Assembly (NCBI GenBank): GCA_002284615.2
Contig: MU069549.1
Location: 355,162 to 390,538 of the forward strand
Reading direction: 5' to 3'
Length of the DNA stretch: 35,377 nt
Source: Dunaliella salina
Taxonomy: Eukaryota; Chlorophyta; Chlorophyceae; Chlamydomonadales; Dunaliellaceae
The number at the start of each line of letters is the position of its first letter. Positions within the stretch are counted from its first letter, which is position 1. Under the pieces are notes generated by a model that saw only the letters and a program-made list of their open reading frames with translations, searched no databases and was not told the origin of the DNA. Positions 4,548 to 27,045 of the stretch are shown here, one piece after another. The translations under genes and the position numbers were made by a program.

Positions 4548-5215
4548 GTGTGGCCATGAGCCCTTACAATTCTTTTGGTTCGGATCTGTGATCAAGCTGT
4601 ACAACAGTATGCTGGACTGCAACAGCACAACCCCCTCTTAAGAAGGTATTTTAGGCTAATTGCAATATGCACTCCAGGGCTGCAGCTGCTGGATGTTGGA
4701 CTGCCCAGATGCTGGATGGATTTCAAGGGTTGGGGAAGTGTGATGAGTGTGTGCAAGCAGTACGGAGGGGTGCACCGATCAAGATTCAGGAGTTTGCTGA
4801 TGATCTGAGACTGAGGCTACGGGTTGTCTGGAACACTGCTGCTACCGATGCGATAAGCGTGCCTCAAAACTATGTGTCCCTCAATCAGTCTTATCTAAGC
4901 GTTCTTTTTCATTCTAACCTGCGTGCCTTGGTGCGAACTCCTTGCCACTTATCTCTGAACCTCTCTGGCCATATCCTGCGTAATGCTTGTCGATTCAGAT
5001 TGCGTGTTCACACCCTGCGTGTTGACAGAGCTATTTGGTCCCAGGGTGAGGATTCTGCCATTTGTGATAGGTGCAACCTGCAGGAGGATCAAGATGTGGC
5101 CCATGTCCTCTTTAAGTGCCTGTGTCCTGAGGTGTACCAAGTTAGGCGCTATTTTTTTGAGCTGTTTCGGCAGTAAGGCAGTTTCTCTTGAATTGAATCT
5201 TGCGTGCAACATGCC
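4548..5215 (+). pseudogene. LINE-A relic: C-terminal part of a non-LTR retrotransposon protein
   Basis: The first part (from about 4551, another frame) reads GHEPLQFFWFGSVIKLYNSM and matches the frame at 21730-21790 (VPLQCYWFRAATRFYNSLL). A shift leads into the long frame ending at 5176, with HILRNACRFRLRVHTLRVDR and a CxxC...HxxxxC knuckle, ICDRCNLQEDQDVAHVLFKC. This is the usual C-terminal zinc knuckle that follows the reverse transcriptase of LINEs. There is no reverse transcriptase in the window. The copy is 5'-truncated and frameshifted, hence dead. Confidence 0.75.
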
Positions 5216-7169: not shown

Positions 7170-17421
<10,252 letters not shown>

Positions 17422-21589: not shown

Positions 21590-21904
21590 GGCATTTGTTT
21601 GCATGCACTCAGTGCAAAGCTGCCCTGATTGCTTGCTGCAAAAAGATCACGCCTGCTTCTTGAAGTGTGATCTGCTTGTGATGGGAGTTAAGCGGATTGC
21701 TTGTAATTGGTCCATGTTGAGGGAGAACGGACAGGTACCATTGCAGTGTTATTGGTTTAGGGCAGCGACAAGGTTTTACAACTCTCTCTTGTGTTGCAAC
21801 AGTACGACCATGAGGAAGGTGCTGCACACTGATGGGGCGTTGAGCATTATTCCTGGTGTGAAATGCTGGGCATCTGAAGTCTTGACTGCATTTGGGGGGC
21901 TGCA
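21590..21904 (+). pseudogene. LINE-A relic joined in frame to LINE-B
   Basis: The frame contains GVKRIACNWSMLRENGQVPL and CYWFRAATRFYNSLLCCNST, matching the LINE-A start at 4551. At about 21905 (AFGGLQ|RSKLYG) the same frame runs directly into the RNase H part of LINE-B copy 1, giving a chimeric 219-codon frame (21588-22247). The junction marks insertion of a 5'-truncated LINE-B into LINE-A. Confidence 0.65.
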
Positions 21905-23345
21905 AAGGAGTAAGCTGTATGGACCAATGCGCATGAGGAACCACCTGCATGCAGAGATCACTCACGCTGTATCAATCATATTACAGCATCCCCCGCACCC
22001 TGTTCATTTCTTCAAAGTCAAAGCCCACACTGGTAAAATAAGCAACAAAGGAGCTGATGCCTGCGCGCGCATGACAGCCCTCACAAACACTACAGACACT
22101 GCACTTCCAGATGCCAGTGACCCATTCCACAATTTCCACTGGCTCTCATTGAAGACCTCTCACGCACAAAACGATGGCATCCACCGATCCCATACTTCCC
22201 CGAACCAATATCTCACCAACCTGAATGACAAACTTAAACGTGCATAAAAAGCACAATTTTCTGCTGACACTTCTGGCTACTATCACAATAGATGTCAGAG
22301 GCTCAACTCTGTCCCACAATCTGCTTCCCCTATCACCACGGTCAACATCCAAGCTCACAGTCCAATTGAACTTGGAAACAAGGAGATCAGCAACTCCTTT
22401 TGGGAAAATCCTCAGGATACCCTAAACAGCAGGTAAATGTAATGAAGTGCTAAACAAATACACACGCCTTCAATTTCAACTTCTCTTCCAATCCTGGAAG
22501 CTGCCCACTCTGTGATGATGAAGATGACATTGATCGCATACTCCTCAGGTGTACCAACTCCCAAAAATGAAAGTGATGCACACCAACAGGTACCATGCAG
22601 GCCTTAGTCTCTGTGTAAATGCCATCATTAAAGGCCTTCATAGCTCATCTTTTCTCAATATGGATGGCTGCAGTAATGAGAGACTCCAGGAACAGGGCAT
22701 GCAAGTCCCGGACACTTGACTCAGGAAGAGAGTCAGTAATAGCAATATTCAGTAATAACATATATATTCAGTAATAGCAATATTCAGCAGTAGTAGTAGT
22801 AGTAGTAGTGTCAAAATAACAGAACAGTCAATAGGTTCAGGAGTAGACATTACGCGTAGCATTCCTGATTGGGTATTCCGTTATGGTACTGGCTCCTCAG
22901 CCTGCCACCAAAGCCGCCCGGATGCTCTTTGTGCGCTCTATACCAGGCTGACCAGTCCACCTGGATCCCTCCAAGATCCCTGAACCCTTAAGCCTAACCC
23001 TGATTGTGACAGGGTCATCCGCCTTGATGAATGAAATCGTGCTCCAACACCAACCCCTTCATCACTTTGGAACGGGCAGCAGCTCAATATTTTCACACTG
23101 TAACCAGACCTAAATCCTGCAGCTCAAGAAATCCAAACAATAATAACTCTGCATATCAAACTCTGCATATCATCTTAATTGGCGTGTCGGGCATTATAAA
23201 CAATGGTTACACAATCAAACCTCTTATGAAGTCTGGGCCTTACCGAGCACGCAGCTGAGTCAATAGCAACCGAGCTTAGCTGCCATGCCAGTCATGGATT
23301 TTGGCCAAAAATTGACAAACATCATTAATACCAGATATGCTCTTC
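21905..23345 (+). pseudogene. LINE-B copy 1 (RNase H end to C-terminus), decayed
   Basis: It starts with the second half of RNase H (LHAEITHAVSIILQ, HFFKVKAHTGKISNKGADAC). After a frameshift near 22245 it carries the zinc knuckle (CPLCDDEDDIDRILLRC, 22500-22550) and the C-terminal region (TLHIILIGVSGIINNGYTIK, 23155-23220). A microsatellite region (22735-22810, AATATTCAGTAATAGC and AGT units) has expanded inside it. The last match to the family is CATCATTAATACCAGATATGC at 23321-23341. Confidence 0.75.
22735..22810. repeat. AGTAATAGCAATATTC and AGT microsatellite
   Basis: Short tandem units followed by (AGT)8 or so, inside LINE-B copy 1; not present in copy 2. Confidence 0.85.
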
Positions 23346-23635
23346 ATCTCCAGAGACACAACTGATGAGGTTGCCATGCCCACACAAATGCCAGAGATAA
23401 CCACCTCTGAATAAGCCTGTATCTACAATACCAATGGCAAATGCATGGGCATGCTCACTATAGGAAGGCTCACAACCCTGCCTGAAGCCTACAAAGCAGC
23501 CAAAAGAGCAGGCATCCATGCCACCATTCAGCCCCCTGTCCAGGATTCAGCATCTGAAATCATGGGTCTGCTCTCACGCCAAAAGGCTCAACAGAAAAAT
23601 CTTTTGGTCCAGAGCAAAAGGTTTTCAATTCAAAC

Positions 23636-24505
23636 ATGCTTATTACCCCTTCCCACATCCGATCAGCCCTGCATAAATGGTGCATGGTCTCAGCGGAGAG
23701 GTTTTCCAGCCCTCTTGATCTTGAAAATACCTACAATACTTATTTCAGCACAAACTACCGAGACCAGGTCTTTGGGGCGCACGAAGACGCCCTCTCTGTG
23801 CGTTACACTGGCTTCTCCTTCTGCCATCCTCCACACGATGATGAAATTATGTTTAAACTCCTGCGCCACGCAGTGCACTCCTCCCTCCATTCCACAGATC
23901 CAGCTGCCACCTTCATGCTCCTGCCCCACTGGAGAGGCTTCAGCTGTAACACGTACATGAGCTGGCTGAAACAATACCCAGATACTGCAAAAGTTCTTGC
24001 CAAATTCCCTGCAAGGAAAATCCAATTCCAAGCACCACAACACTGGTTTGATACCATCACCAATCCTACTCCACCTTCCTATCCTATGCAAGTCATCGTT
24101 GTGCGGAACCCTAACGCCAGAGAAATACTAGATACCGCAAACAAAGACTGGTTTCAGTCCCTCCAGCAAGATGTAAAGCAAGTTACACCAGAAGCTTGTT
24201 GGCGAACTTTGGATACTCCAAATACTGTCACGCTGCTGCATACCCACCAACACCTAGCATCAAATACTTGGAAACATAAATCCCAATCACTCCCCCCTGA
24301 CACCCATAGCTGCTCACACAAGTGCCCTCAGGAGAGGGCAGAATTCAACCCTGCCAACTTCAAAAAGATGTTCACACCTGAAGTCAAGGACTGGAGGGAA
24401 ATTACCTACACCGATGGCAGTGTGATTAAGCGCAAAGATGACGACTCCCCACCCCTTTCCGGTTCAGGTGTTTACAAACCAGGAAGTGAAGTTATTGTAG
24501 CCTAA
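23636..24505 (+). pseudogene. LINE-B protein segment: PCIF1-like methyltransferase fold, then RNase H N-terminal half
   Basis: 289 codons. Residues about 22-180 look like the adenine-methyltransferase domain of the PCIF1 family. There is a block RFSSPLDLENTYNTYFSTN, then FGAHEDALS..GFSFCHPPHDDEIM (residues 47-72) where that family has NPPF, a helix (FKLLRHAVHSSLHS), the strand FMLLPHW (93-99), a segment LAKFPARKIQF, and the strand MQVIVVRN (151-158). The catalytic Asn of NPPF is His64 here, so cap-methyltransferase activity is doubtful unless this sub-family works differently. Residues 256-262 (ITYTDGS) are the first RNase H strand with catalytic Asp260. The frame leaves the element at 24490, where the SINE starts. 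The fold assignment is my pattern reading, not a search result. Confidence 0.55.
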
Positions 24506-24657
24506 CGGGTGAAACGCGGCCCTAGTGAACGCGGGAGGTCCGGGGTTCGACCCCGGGTACCGGTGAGGATTTGCCTTGAGCAAGTAGGTCCTTCCCTCAA
24601 TCAATGCTATCGGACAGTGTCTAATAGCGTAGCTTTTCTTTTCTTTTCTTTTCTTTT
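24490..24657 (+). mobile_element. tRNA-derived SINE with 11-base target duplication
   Basis: Inserted in the RNase H region of LINE-B copy 2. CCAGGAAGTGA occurs on both sides (24479-24489 and 24658-24668). The head has an A-box-like TAGCCTAACGGG (24498-24509) and a perfect B box GGTTCGACCCC (24544-24554) in a T-arm stem (CCGGGG/CCCCGG), so it derives from a tRNA and had an internal RNA polymerase III promoter. The tail ends CTAATAGCGTAGC followed by (TTTTC)n, like the LINE-B 3' end. Removing it restores the reading frame (PGSD...) of the host element. Confidence 0.88.
24498..24554 (+). promoter_or_regulatory. Internal RNA polymerase III promoter (A and B boxes) of the SINE
   Basis: A box TAGCCTAACGGG at 24498-24509 and B box GGTTCGACCCC at 24544-24554, 34 bases apart, the usual tRNA spacing. 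The rest of the cloverleaf is degenerate, so it is not a functional tRNA gene. Confidence 0.75.
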
Positions 24658-24669
24658 CCAGGAAGTGAC

Positions 24670-25075
24670 ACTGCTGCACCCTCCCAACACTTGCAAGTGC
24701 ACATATAACCCAATGGCCATGGGCCAACCAATACCGTCACCAGAGCAGAACTTGTGGGTATCCTTGTGGCACTCCAACACGAGCAAACTGAGATTGCCAC
24801 TGATAGTGCATCCTGCCTTTTTCAGATTTCTAATCAAACCCTTAACCCGACGCGCATGAGGTATCACCTACATGCAGAGCTCATTCATGCAATATCAACC
24901 ATATTAGAGCACTCCCCTCACCCTATCCATTTTTACAAAGTCAAAGCCCACTCTGGCACCAAAGGAAATGAGGGGGCTGACGCTTGCGCTCGCACCGCAG
25001 CCCTCTCTCACACCATAGATATTGCACTTCCGGACCCTTTCCGCAATTTTTATTGGCTTTCATTGAAGACCTCTG
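24670..25075 (+). pseudogene. LINE-B copy 2: second part of RNase H
   Basis: After the SINE the frame continues: TNTVTRAELVGILVAL with the catalytic Glu, EIATDSASCLFQI with the second Asp, and HFYKVKAHSGTKGNEGADAC with the His and last Asp. With Asp260 of the upstream segment all D-E-D-D positions of a type I RNase H are kept, although a stop interrupts near 24708. Confidence 0.75.
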
Positions 25076-25081
25076 CCACAC

Positions 25082-25477
25082 TTGTCATCTTTCTAGAGCC
25101 TCAGCTCAGGTCACCCTCCATACTATCCTGTTAGGTGTGGGAGGAGTCATCTACACCCCACACACATTGGAGCCTCTAAAGGAGCTTGGTCTTGACACTT
25201 ACAAGGCCACCAAGCTTGCTCGGAAGCTTCATACTCATTCTGTCCTGTATGCCTACAAACTTGCCAGCACCAGACGCGCTATTGAGAAAGCTTTCTTCAA
25301 CTCTCATCAACAAGATCAGGCACGAGCTACTGCCAGTAACCCACCTGATCCCCATTGACTTTTTGCTTCTGCTTTCTCTTGGTGGAGCGGATACACGGTG
25401 CCTCGGCCCTAGGTATCCTCTTTTCCTTAATTGATGTGGGGAGTGTTTTCACTGCCTTCGTAGTTTTTCTTTTCTTT
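25082..25477 (+). mobile_element. LINE-B2 3' fragment nested in LINE-B, with target duplication
   Basis: TCTGCCACAC flanks both sides (25072-25081 and 25478-25487). The insert codes for a C-terminus homologous to that of LINE-B (VTLHTILLGVGGVIYTPHTL, LARKLHTHSVLYAYKLASTR) and ends with a stop at about 25358. A different 3' untranslated region follows (GGCCCTAGGTATCCTCTTTTCC, AATTGATGTGGGGAG) and a TTTTC tail. So LINE-B2 is a sister family that transposed after this LINE-B copy. Confidence 0.85.
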
Positions 25478-25765
25478 TCTGCCACACAAAATGATGGCAT
25501 GCACCGCTCCCACACTTTCCCGATACACTATCTCACCAACCTGAGCGACAAACTTAAAACACACATGCACAAGAAACACAAGCTTGGCTCTGCTGACACC
25601 ACTGGATACCACTACCAGAGATGGCAAAAGCTTACCGATGCCACACTACCCACCACCAATGCTAACACTGAAGCTCACAGCCCAACCCCTCAACTTGCAA
25701 ACAAGGAGGTTAGCAACTCCTTCTGGAAAAGCCCAAAGATAACCCTTAAATAGCAAATAAATCTT

Positions 25766-26254
25766 ATGAAGTATCGACCGGATACACTGTACACACAGAG
25801 TCATGCCTCCAACTTCAACTTTTCAAGTTCTGAGAGGTGCCCACTTTGTGCAAATACAGATAACATTTATCATGTTCTGCTTAGGTGCACCAACCCAACA
25901 ATGAGTGGGATGCACACCAACAGACACCATGCGGCCCTTCGTCTCTGTGTAGAAGCCCTGAGTAAAGGCCGGTATGCCTCATCCCTCATTAGCATGGATG
26001 GCTGCAATCATGACAGACTTCTGGATCAAGGCATACAAATCCCTGAAAACACCTCTCGAGCTATTCCAGAATGGGTTTTCCCAAATGACATTGCCTCACC
26101 TGCTCGGCACCAAAGCCGCCCTGATGCTCTTTTTGTGCACCCCATCCCAGGCAGAGAAGCCCACCTTGATCCTACCAAGATCCCCCCAAAAGATAGGGAT
26201 ATTCACCTCGTCGAACTTAATTCTGCCCTAACACAAATCCCTTCATCACTTTAG
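25766..26254 (+). pseudogene. LINE-B copy 2: C-terminal zinc-knuckle segment
   Basis: 162 open codons. SERCPLCANTDNIYHVLLRC gives a CxxC...HxxxxC knuckle, as at the end of many LINE proteins. ASPARHQSRPDALFVHPIPG and DRDIHLVELNSA follow, the latter resembling a nuclease-like strand (D-hhxVELN), though I cannot show activity. It ends with a stop at 26252; the C-terminal block resumes in another frame. Confidence 0.65.
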
Positions 26255-26767
26255 AACGTGCACGGACTCAACATTCCCACACCATAACTAGACTTAAAAC
26301 ACGCAGCTTAAGAAACCCAAACGGGAATAACAAAGTGACTTTGTGTACAATCTTAATTGGTGTGGGTGGCACGATTTACAATGAGCTAAAAATTTCACCT
26401 CTCATAAATCTGGGTCTAAGCAAACAGAAAGCCAAATCACTAGCATCCAAGCTCAGGGACCATGCCATCCAAAGATTATCCACCATCATTAACACTAGAT
26501 ATGCACTTTGCTTTCAGAGGGCATCTGGGAGGGGTTTGCTGGGCGTGCGGCGGTGGCTGAGGATGGGAGAAGAAGAGTCTGAGCGCTCAGGGGCATGGCT
26601 AGCAATCCTCCAGATCCCCATTAGTTCTGTCTCTTGCTCTCTCCTAGGCTAGTTTTGTCTAGTTTAGGTGGAGGGCCTCCTGGTGAGGCCTCTAACTTTT
26701 GTTAGGTGTTCTTCCCTTAATGCACGCGGCCTTTGGCTTGCGTAGCCTTTCCTTTTCTTTTCTTTTT

Positions 26768-27045
26768 CAGAGGGCTATTTTTTTGGGGGGGGGGATGCTT
26801 GGCAGGGGCCGATGGACAGAAGAAGAAGGACTGTCTGGGCGTCTAGGAGCATGGCACGCAACCCCCGCCGAATCCTCATTAACTCTGTTTCAAGCGCGCT
26901 GTGTTAGCTGCGTCTAGTGCAGGTTTTGAATGCAGGTTTTGAGGGCTTTCAGGTGAGGCCTCTAACTTTCCAGCTAGGGGACCTTCCCTTAATGCATGCT
27001 GCCTCCGGCTTGCTCAAACTCTTTTTTCTTTCTTTTCCTGTATGA
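26768..27045 (+). mobile_element. LINE-B 3' end, diverged copy directly after copy 2
   Basis: It starts AGGGCTATTTTTTTGGGG right after the CTTTT tail of copy 2 and carries AGGTGAGGCCTCTAACTTTC, CTTCCCTTAATGCATGCTGC and a T-rich end near 27015-27040. It is about as diverged as the copy at 326-615. Confidence 0.7.

Follow-up and report, generated by a model that had tools for sequence, protein, structure and literature searches.

We analysed a 35,377-nucleotide stretch of the Dunaliella salina genome (contig MU069549.1, positions 355,162 to 390,538 of the forward strand; hereafter, the window) that holds a broken copy of a long interspersed nuclear element (LINE). The LINE family is abundant in this genome and carries, within its own protein, a relative of PCIF1, the enzyme that methylates mRNA caps. 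Judging from the sequence, the domain probably handles RNA in the element instead of performing the usual methylation.

Identity of the PCIF1-like domain

The reading frame under study (23558-24505, + strand, 315 amino acids) contains CHPPHDDEIM, FMLLPHW, MQVIVVRN and ITYTDGS, arranged as a first-pass annotation made from the letters alone had reported. That annotation proposed a PCIF1-type fold ahead of RNase H, with a helix and the strands FMLLPHW and MQVIVVRN, and HPPH in place of the catalytic NPPF. Profile, sequence and fold comparisons each gave PCIF1 first. The profile search it recommended, where a lack of significant PCIF1 matches would have spoken against the proposal, matched PF12237 (PCIF1_WW) in Pfam at E 1.1e-9 and 38.6 bits (curated cut-off, 31.1 bits), aligning residues 30-131 to profile positions 49-149 of 176. 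When the window protein was compared to PDB chains with phmmer, both PCIF1 sequences were the sole matches at E<=1 (7.1e-4 and 0.075), and the alignment placed HPPH opposite NPPF.

The AlphaFold2 model of the window protein agreed with the predicted elements: a helix at residues 69-85 and strands at 91-97 (in ATFMLLPHW) and 151-157 (in MQVIVVRN). A Foldseek search with this model ranked the six PCIF1 entries first. For the suggested structure overlay, Foldseek and VIA-align both aligned the model (residues 1-185) to PCIF1 as the nearest Rossmann fold. Profile and fold correspond to residues 490-668 of human PCIF1, in its methyltransferase domain. The WW domain of animal PCIF1 was absent from Pfam scans of the polyprotein pieces and relatives.

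At the family level, a 16-member profile built on the domain only retrieved PCIF1 alone below E 0.4 in the PDB (3.5e-4 and 7e-4). The same search with A1, an alignment of whole-polyprotein rows, was dominated by RNase H and reached PCIF1 at E 0.025 and 0.029.

The LINE family and its architecture

We searched the 285 Mb assembly (1403 contigs); L numbers denote genomic loci of the family and P numbers related proteins in public sequence data. Light-harvesting proteins have 11 matches in this assembly, and the four retrieved resemble LHC proteins of green algae, in line with a green-algal host. PF12237 had at least 150 matches in the genome, and all 150 scored ones, among 881 candidates, were over the cut-off. 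The 30 best-match loci (L009-L038) presented an RNase H match in 29 cases and a PHD-region match in 23, and the lone locus lacking RNase H (L035) has an assembly gap. This rules out a host PCIF1 gene as the source of these 30 loci.

The PCIF1-like domain occupies a constant position in the element, after a PHD-like finger and before RNase H. Among the matches listed, 15 pairs had PCIF1 followed by RNase H on the same strand –14 of them at 424-473 bp, one at 5668 bp– and in no pair was RNase H upstream of PCIF1 or on the other strand. Reverse transcriptase (RT) preceded PCIF1 in eight pairs that involve seven PCIF1 loci, with a spacing of 2218-2463 bp in seven pairs and of 2938 bp in the eighth, and no pair was arranged otherwise. 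It preceded RNase H in 19 pairs, with none upstream and one on the other strand (RT pairing used 126 of 129 RT rows). The position of the RT, which the first-pass annotation wanted located, is upstream of the domain and before the PHD-like finger.

The order of the polyprotein, assembled from several copies with no single intact copy among the fetched loci, is Josephin, APE endonuclease, RT, PHD-like finger, PCIF1-like domain, RNase H, zinc knuckle and restriction-like (R2-type) endonuclease. RNase H was detected in L039 with PF00075 at E 2.7e-15, and the restriction-like endonuclease fold is present in L005, a better-preserved copy. The APE copies are broken and score weakly: the exonuclease III profile matched at positions 1-123 (L054, E 2.6e-5) and 103-252 (L053, E 0.0016), far under the model's cut-off, and PF03372 reached E 6.6e-4 and 0.013, also under its cut-off. 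When searched against the PDB, the APE piece matched factor H-binding protein (E 2.3e-5, residues 203-250), which we took as a chance match that lies outside the nuclease part. Since it combines two endonucleases, APE and restriction-like, the element is by its architecture a Dualen/RandI-like LINE. No cytosine DNA methyltransferase (DNMT) domain (PF00145) was found in the Pfam scans of the polyprotein pieces.

One relative, P0024 (1884 amino acids, public metagenome data), shares 30% identity with P0014 along 98% of its length and runs from RT through endonuclease in one frame. Pfam detects its RT and PHD; its RNase H is identified by the source's name and by alignment, and its PCIF1-like part by alignment alone.

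Two side observations concern the family. A Josephin-type cysteine-protease domain, which is deubiquitinase-like and unusual in a LINE, lies before the APE in L053:1284-2552 (PF02099 E 7.1e-8, two stretches); this piece had no relative at E<0.1 in the PDB. Besides, several related proteins (P0003, P0004, P0006-P0008, P0011-P0013, P0023 and P0026) carry the label Pelagomonas calceolata in EukProt or originate from MMETSP, while the host is green-algal, and they are possibly transcriptome cross-contamination.

Catalytic motif and selection

The first-pass annotation had considered a sub-family change at the catalytic residue and proposed collecting family members to compare HPP with NPP. The census of 39 distinct copies (42 rows minus the repeats L016, L030 and L041) bears this change out: the catalytic Asn position is His in 35, Gln in two, Asn in one (L022) and Arg in one. 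The following Pro is kept in all 39; at the position of F556, 33 copies have Tyr and six have His. His occupies the catalytic position in 26 of the 27 rows of A1 and in nine of 11 diverse members, the other two being P0031 with Asn and the roughly 30% identical P0024 with Phe (motif FPGH). Thus, the replacement of Asn is an old and mostly fixed feature of the family, and decay peculiar to the window copy is ruled out as its cause by the dominance of His. All 11 diverse members share SPL, FGA and the first Pro of the motif without variation; judging by their location in the fold, we take SPL and FG to lie on the cofactor side. A third subfamily, with a CHPDYDD motif and most similar to L023 and L037, was also observed beside another copy, in the opposite orientation (L039:2-670 and L041).

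The domain is under purifying selection, about as tight as that on RNase H. The ratio of nonsynonymous to synonymous substitution rates (dN/dS) of the domain had a median of 0.309 in the HPIY subfamily (range 0.238-0.876; 11 sequences, 55 pairs); the eight listed pairings of L033 or L024 with L004, L005, L007 or L039 gave 0.26-0.32. For RNase H, the median was 0.374 (range 0.151-1.120; 11 copies, 55 pairs, skipping the stops that two of the 11 rows contain). The window's HPPH subfamily gave 0.143-0.491 in six pairs; the three low ones all include L029, which reads past a frameshift at its end. Neutral decay after insertion pushes the dN/dS of close pairs up.

Possible role of the domain

We favor, with a probability of about 55%, a Dualen/RandI-like LINE whose PCIF1-derived domain serves as a pseudo-methyltransferase to hold the RNA of the element. 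From the motif, we infer that the N6-adenine chemistry of PCIF1 was lost, and the fold may plausibly have been kept to bind RNA. The domain would hold either the capped 5' end or the RNA:DNA hybrid of target-primed reverse transcription, and the held RNA would be placed beside RNase H, which removes the template. We propose RNA holding because single-stranded RNA is a substrate of PCIF1 and RNA/DNA hybrids are a weaker one (excerpts of PMC10544176), and because the domain directly precedes RNase H, which acts on hybrids. The suggestion in the first-pass annotation that the domain acts on cap or DNA adenines found no support.

Several observations weigh against this interpretation. The catalytic Asn persists in L022 and P0031, and SPL and FG –aligned with PCIF1 and invariant in the diverse members– could mean that the cofactor site is still used. 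The window model has a mean predicted local distance difference test score (pLDDT) of 61.5 and is weak at residues 19-66, the would-be cofactor side. L033, a well-preserved copy, matches PCIF1 in the PDB at E 0.14 only; in Pfam, P0014, P0025, P0027 and P0031 score under the PF12237 cut-off, and P0024 gives no match to it. The decayed state of the window copy, the low pLDDT and the result of L033 on its own would also suit a chance or artefactual likeness to PCIF1. We regard this as extremely improbable and ruled out by the profile, PDB sequence and fold searches, given the genome-wide matches above the cut-off, the domain-only profile that finds PCIF1 alone, and the six PCIF1 entries on top of the fold search.

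The strongest competing view is that the domain is a working methyltransferase whose active site has been altered to C-H-P-x-[YH]-D. It would bind S-adenosylmethionine and methylate a different atom, base or substrate, which may be the element's RNA or cDNA. The invariant SPL, FGA and first Pro, the F556 position that stays aromatic, and a dN/dS of about 0.3 would all fit an enzyme, and retrotransposons carrying conserved methyltransferases are known (excerpts of PMC5890265). However, mutation of N553 and F556 is the standard inactivation of human PCIF1, and such mutants serve as the inactive enzyme (excerpts of PMC10544176), whereas most members here lack the Asn and P0024 reads FPGH. We consider an active enzyme possible but rather unlikely, and the present computations do not separate it from a pseudo-methyltransferase. 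More doubtful still is a purely architectural role, in which the domain acts as a spacer or makes protein contacts that position RNase H and does nothing with nucleic acids itself. The constant adjacency to RNase H wherever the pair lies within 1 kb (the 14 pairs listed) and the lack of any sign of ligand binding in the present results agree with it, but conservation of His-Pro, SPL and FG among members with about 30-40% identity is not what one would predict for a spacer.

Taking the pseudo-methyltransferase and the altered enzyme together, we tentatively envisage a wider scenario, which we hold as a speculative one. A LINE lineage would have acquired a cap methyltransferase of eukaryotic origin and remodelled its active site to C-H-P-x-[YH]-D, making it a reader of the element's own capped RNA or RNA:DNA hybrid, or giving it new chemistry, within a polyprotein that also contains a PHD-like finger, RNase H and a pair of unrelated endonucleases.

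If the domain does bind the element's RNA, both the LINE's choice of its own transcript and the coupling of RNA template removal to reverse transcription become testable. Moreover, the family is a natural set of PCIF1 relatives in which the catalytic residue was changed and kept so, which helps to separate binding from catalysis.

Organization of the window

The window holds three copies of the family and a short interspersed nuclear element (SINE):

21813..23355, + strand: copy A, an older fragment of the same LINE family (RNase H end, linker, zinc knuckle, restriction-like endonuclease end)
23355..26770, + strand: copy B, the 5'-truncated LINE copy bearing the PCIF1-like domain, with a (CTTTT)n-like tail
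23636..24190, + strand: PCIF1-like Rossmann methyltransferase domain, HPPH for NPPF (PF12237, Foldseek, VIA-align)
24398..24489, + strand: RNase H, first part (ITYTDGS; P0010 and P0013 matches to 24484 and 24493)
24479..24489, + strand: target site duplication CCAGGAAGTGA, left (sequence)
24490..24657, + strand: SINE insertion with tRNA-like head, (TTTTC)n tail and stop codon at 24503-24505 (repeat matches, flanking duplication)
24658..24668, + strand: target site duplication CCAGGAAGTGA, right (sequence)
24658..25081, + strand: RNase H second part and start of the linker (PF00075 E 5.4e-10 on 24709-25131; P0010 from 24658)
25082..25477, + strand: copy C, a 5'-truncated member of this LINE family nested in copy B (endonuclease end, terminal NPPDPH, 3' tail)
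25478..25750, + strand: copy B resumed, linker past RNase H (P0013 matches 25487-25739)
25838..25891, + strand: zinc knuckle CPLC..H..C (sequence; PF13966 zf-RVT E 0.0068, below cut-off)
25997..26621, + strand: restriction-like endonuclease region, decayed, to a terminal PPDPH-like motif (tblastn 25997-26514 and 26592-26621)

The first-pass annotation had given the feature as 23636-24505. Its frame stands, and we corrected the extents to about 23636-24190 for the domain and about 23355-26770 for the element copy. The stop at 24505 is provided by the SINE that interrupts the RNase H of copy B, which resumes at about 24658. As that annotation had considered, the window copy is dead, because it is 5'-truncated and was later interrupted by two insertions, the SINE and copy C.

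The start of copy B is set by the P0001 match, which begins at 23355 with 90% identity. Family loci match 23355-24489, 24658-26206 and 26432-26768, and the tail repeat lies at 26747-26770. Copy A is covered by tblastn with P0013, P0014, P0020 and P0021 (21813-22561 and 23031-23237), and its direct repeats with copy B, 71-84% identical, extend to 23355. Copy C, which has a (CTTTT)n-like tail, is 90% identical to L020 over 387 bp; the C-termini of P0014 and P0021 reach 25355, and the duplication TCTGCCACAC flanks it at 25072-25081 and 25478-25487. With the family pieces, tblastn found no RT, APE, Josephin or PHD-region pieces in the window.

Eight other frames of the window were scanned, with no Pfam match above cut-off. 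The end of the frame at 4655-5173 resembles by eye the LINE zinc-knuckle region (CDRCNLQEDQDVAHVLFKC); it has no Pfam match, and a similar frame exists at L040:4203-4577. On the minus strand, a 370-amino acid frame at 7782-8891 combines a long TH/GT repeat with a charged segment that resembles a coiled coil; it too lacks a Pfam match and may be an exon of a host gene.

SINE and retrotransposition marks

The SINE query (24496-24650) had at least 41 matches in the genome, window copy included, at 93-100% identity, so the family is young. We take its head to be tRNA-like from a box-B-like motif and the repeat copies; Rfam and ARAGORN detected nothing in the window. Target-primed reverse transcription would account for the target duplications, the 5' truncation and the similar tails of the two elements, with the (TTTTC)n of the SINE resembling the LINE tail, and this LINE probably mobilised the SINE. 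In Chlamydomonas, a review table pairs a (CTTT)n-tailed SINE with RandI elements (excerpts of PMC3747384).

Comparison with known systems

Compared to PCIF1/CAPAM (cap-specific adenosine N6-methyltransferase), the element shares the methyltransferase-domain profile and fold and retains SPL, FG and the motif Pro. It differs in presenting HP[PI][HY] for NPPF, in lacking WW in the scanned frames, and in sitting in a LINE polyprotein. In a literature search of titles and abstract openings, with subscription journals mostly outside its scope, we found no PCIF1 relative in a transposon.

The closest LINEs are Dualen/RandI. APE and restriction-like endonucleases together are the Dualen hallmark and RNase H is reported from Dualen/RandI (excerpts of PMC4640811), and our element has all three. 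Dualen elements occur in green algae, Chlamydomonas and relatives (excerpts of PMC8226300). As far as the Dualen descriptions consulted go, the PCIF1-like, PHD-like and Josephin domains set our element apart; it may also be that Dualen elements have long carried the PCIF1-like domain without its being recognised. Unlike R2, the element additionally has APE, RNase H, Josephin, PHD-like and PCIF1-like domains.

Finally, retrotransposons with cytosine DNMTs or Dam-like methylases are already known, as SymbioLINE-Dnmt and DIRS elements (excerpts of PMC5890265), and they resemble our element in carrying a conserved methyltransferase-type domain. Theirs are DNA cytosine or Dam-like methyltransferases, whereas the domain described here is related to a methyltransferase of RNA caps, has its catalytic residue changed, and belongs to the RT-bearing polyprotein of a two-endonuclease LINE.
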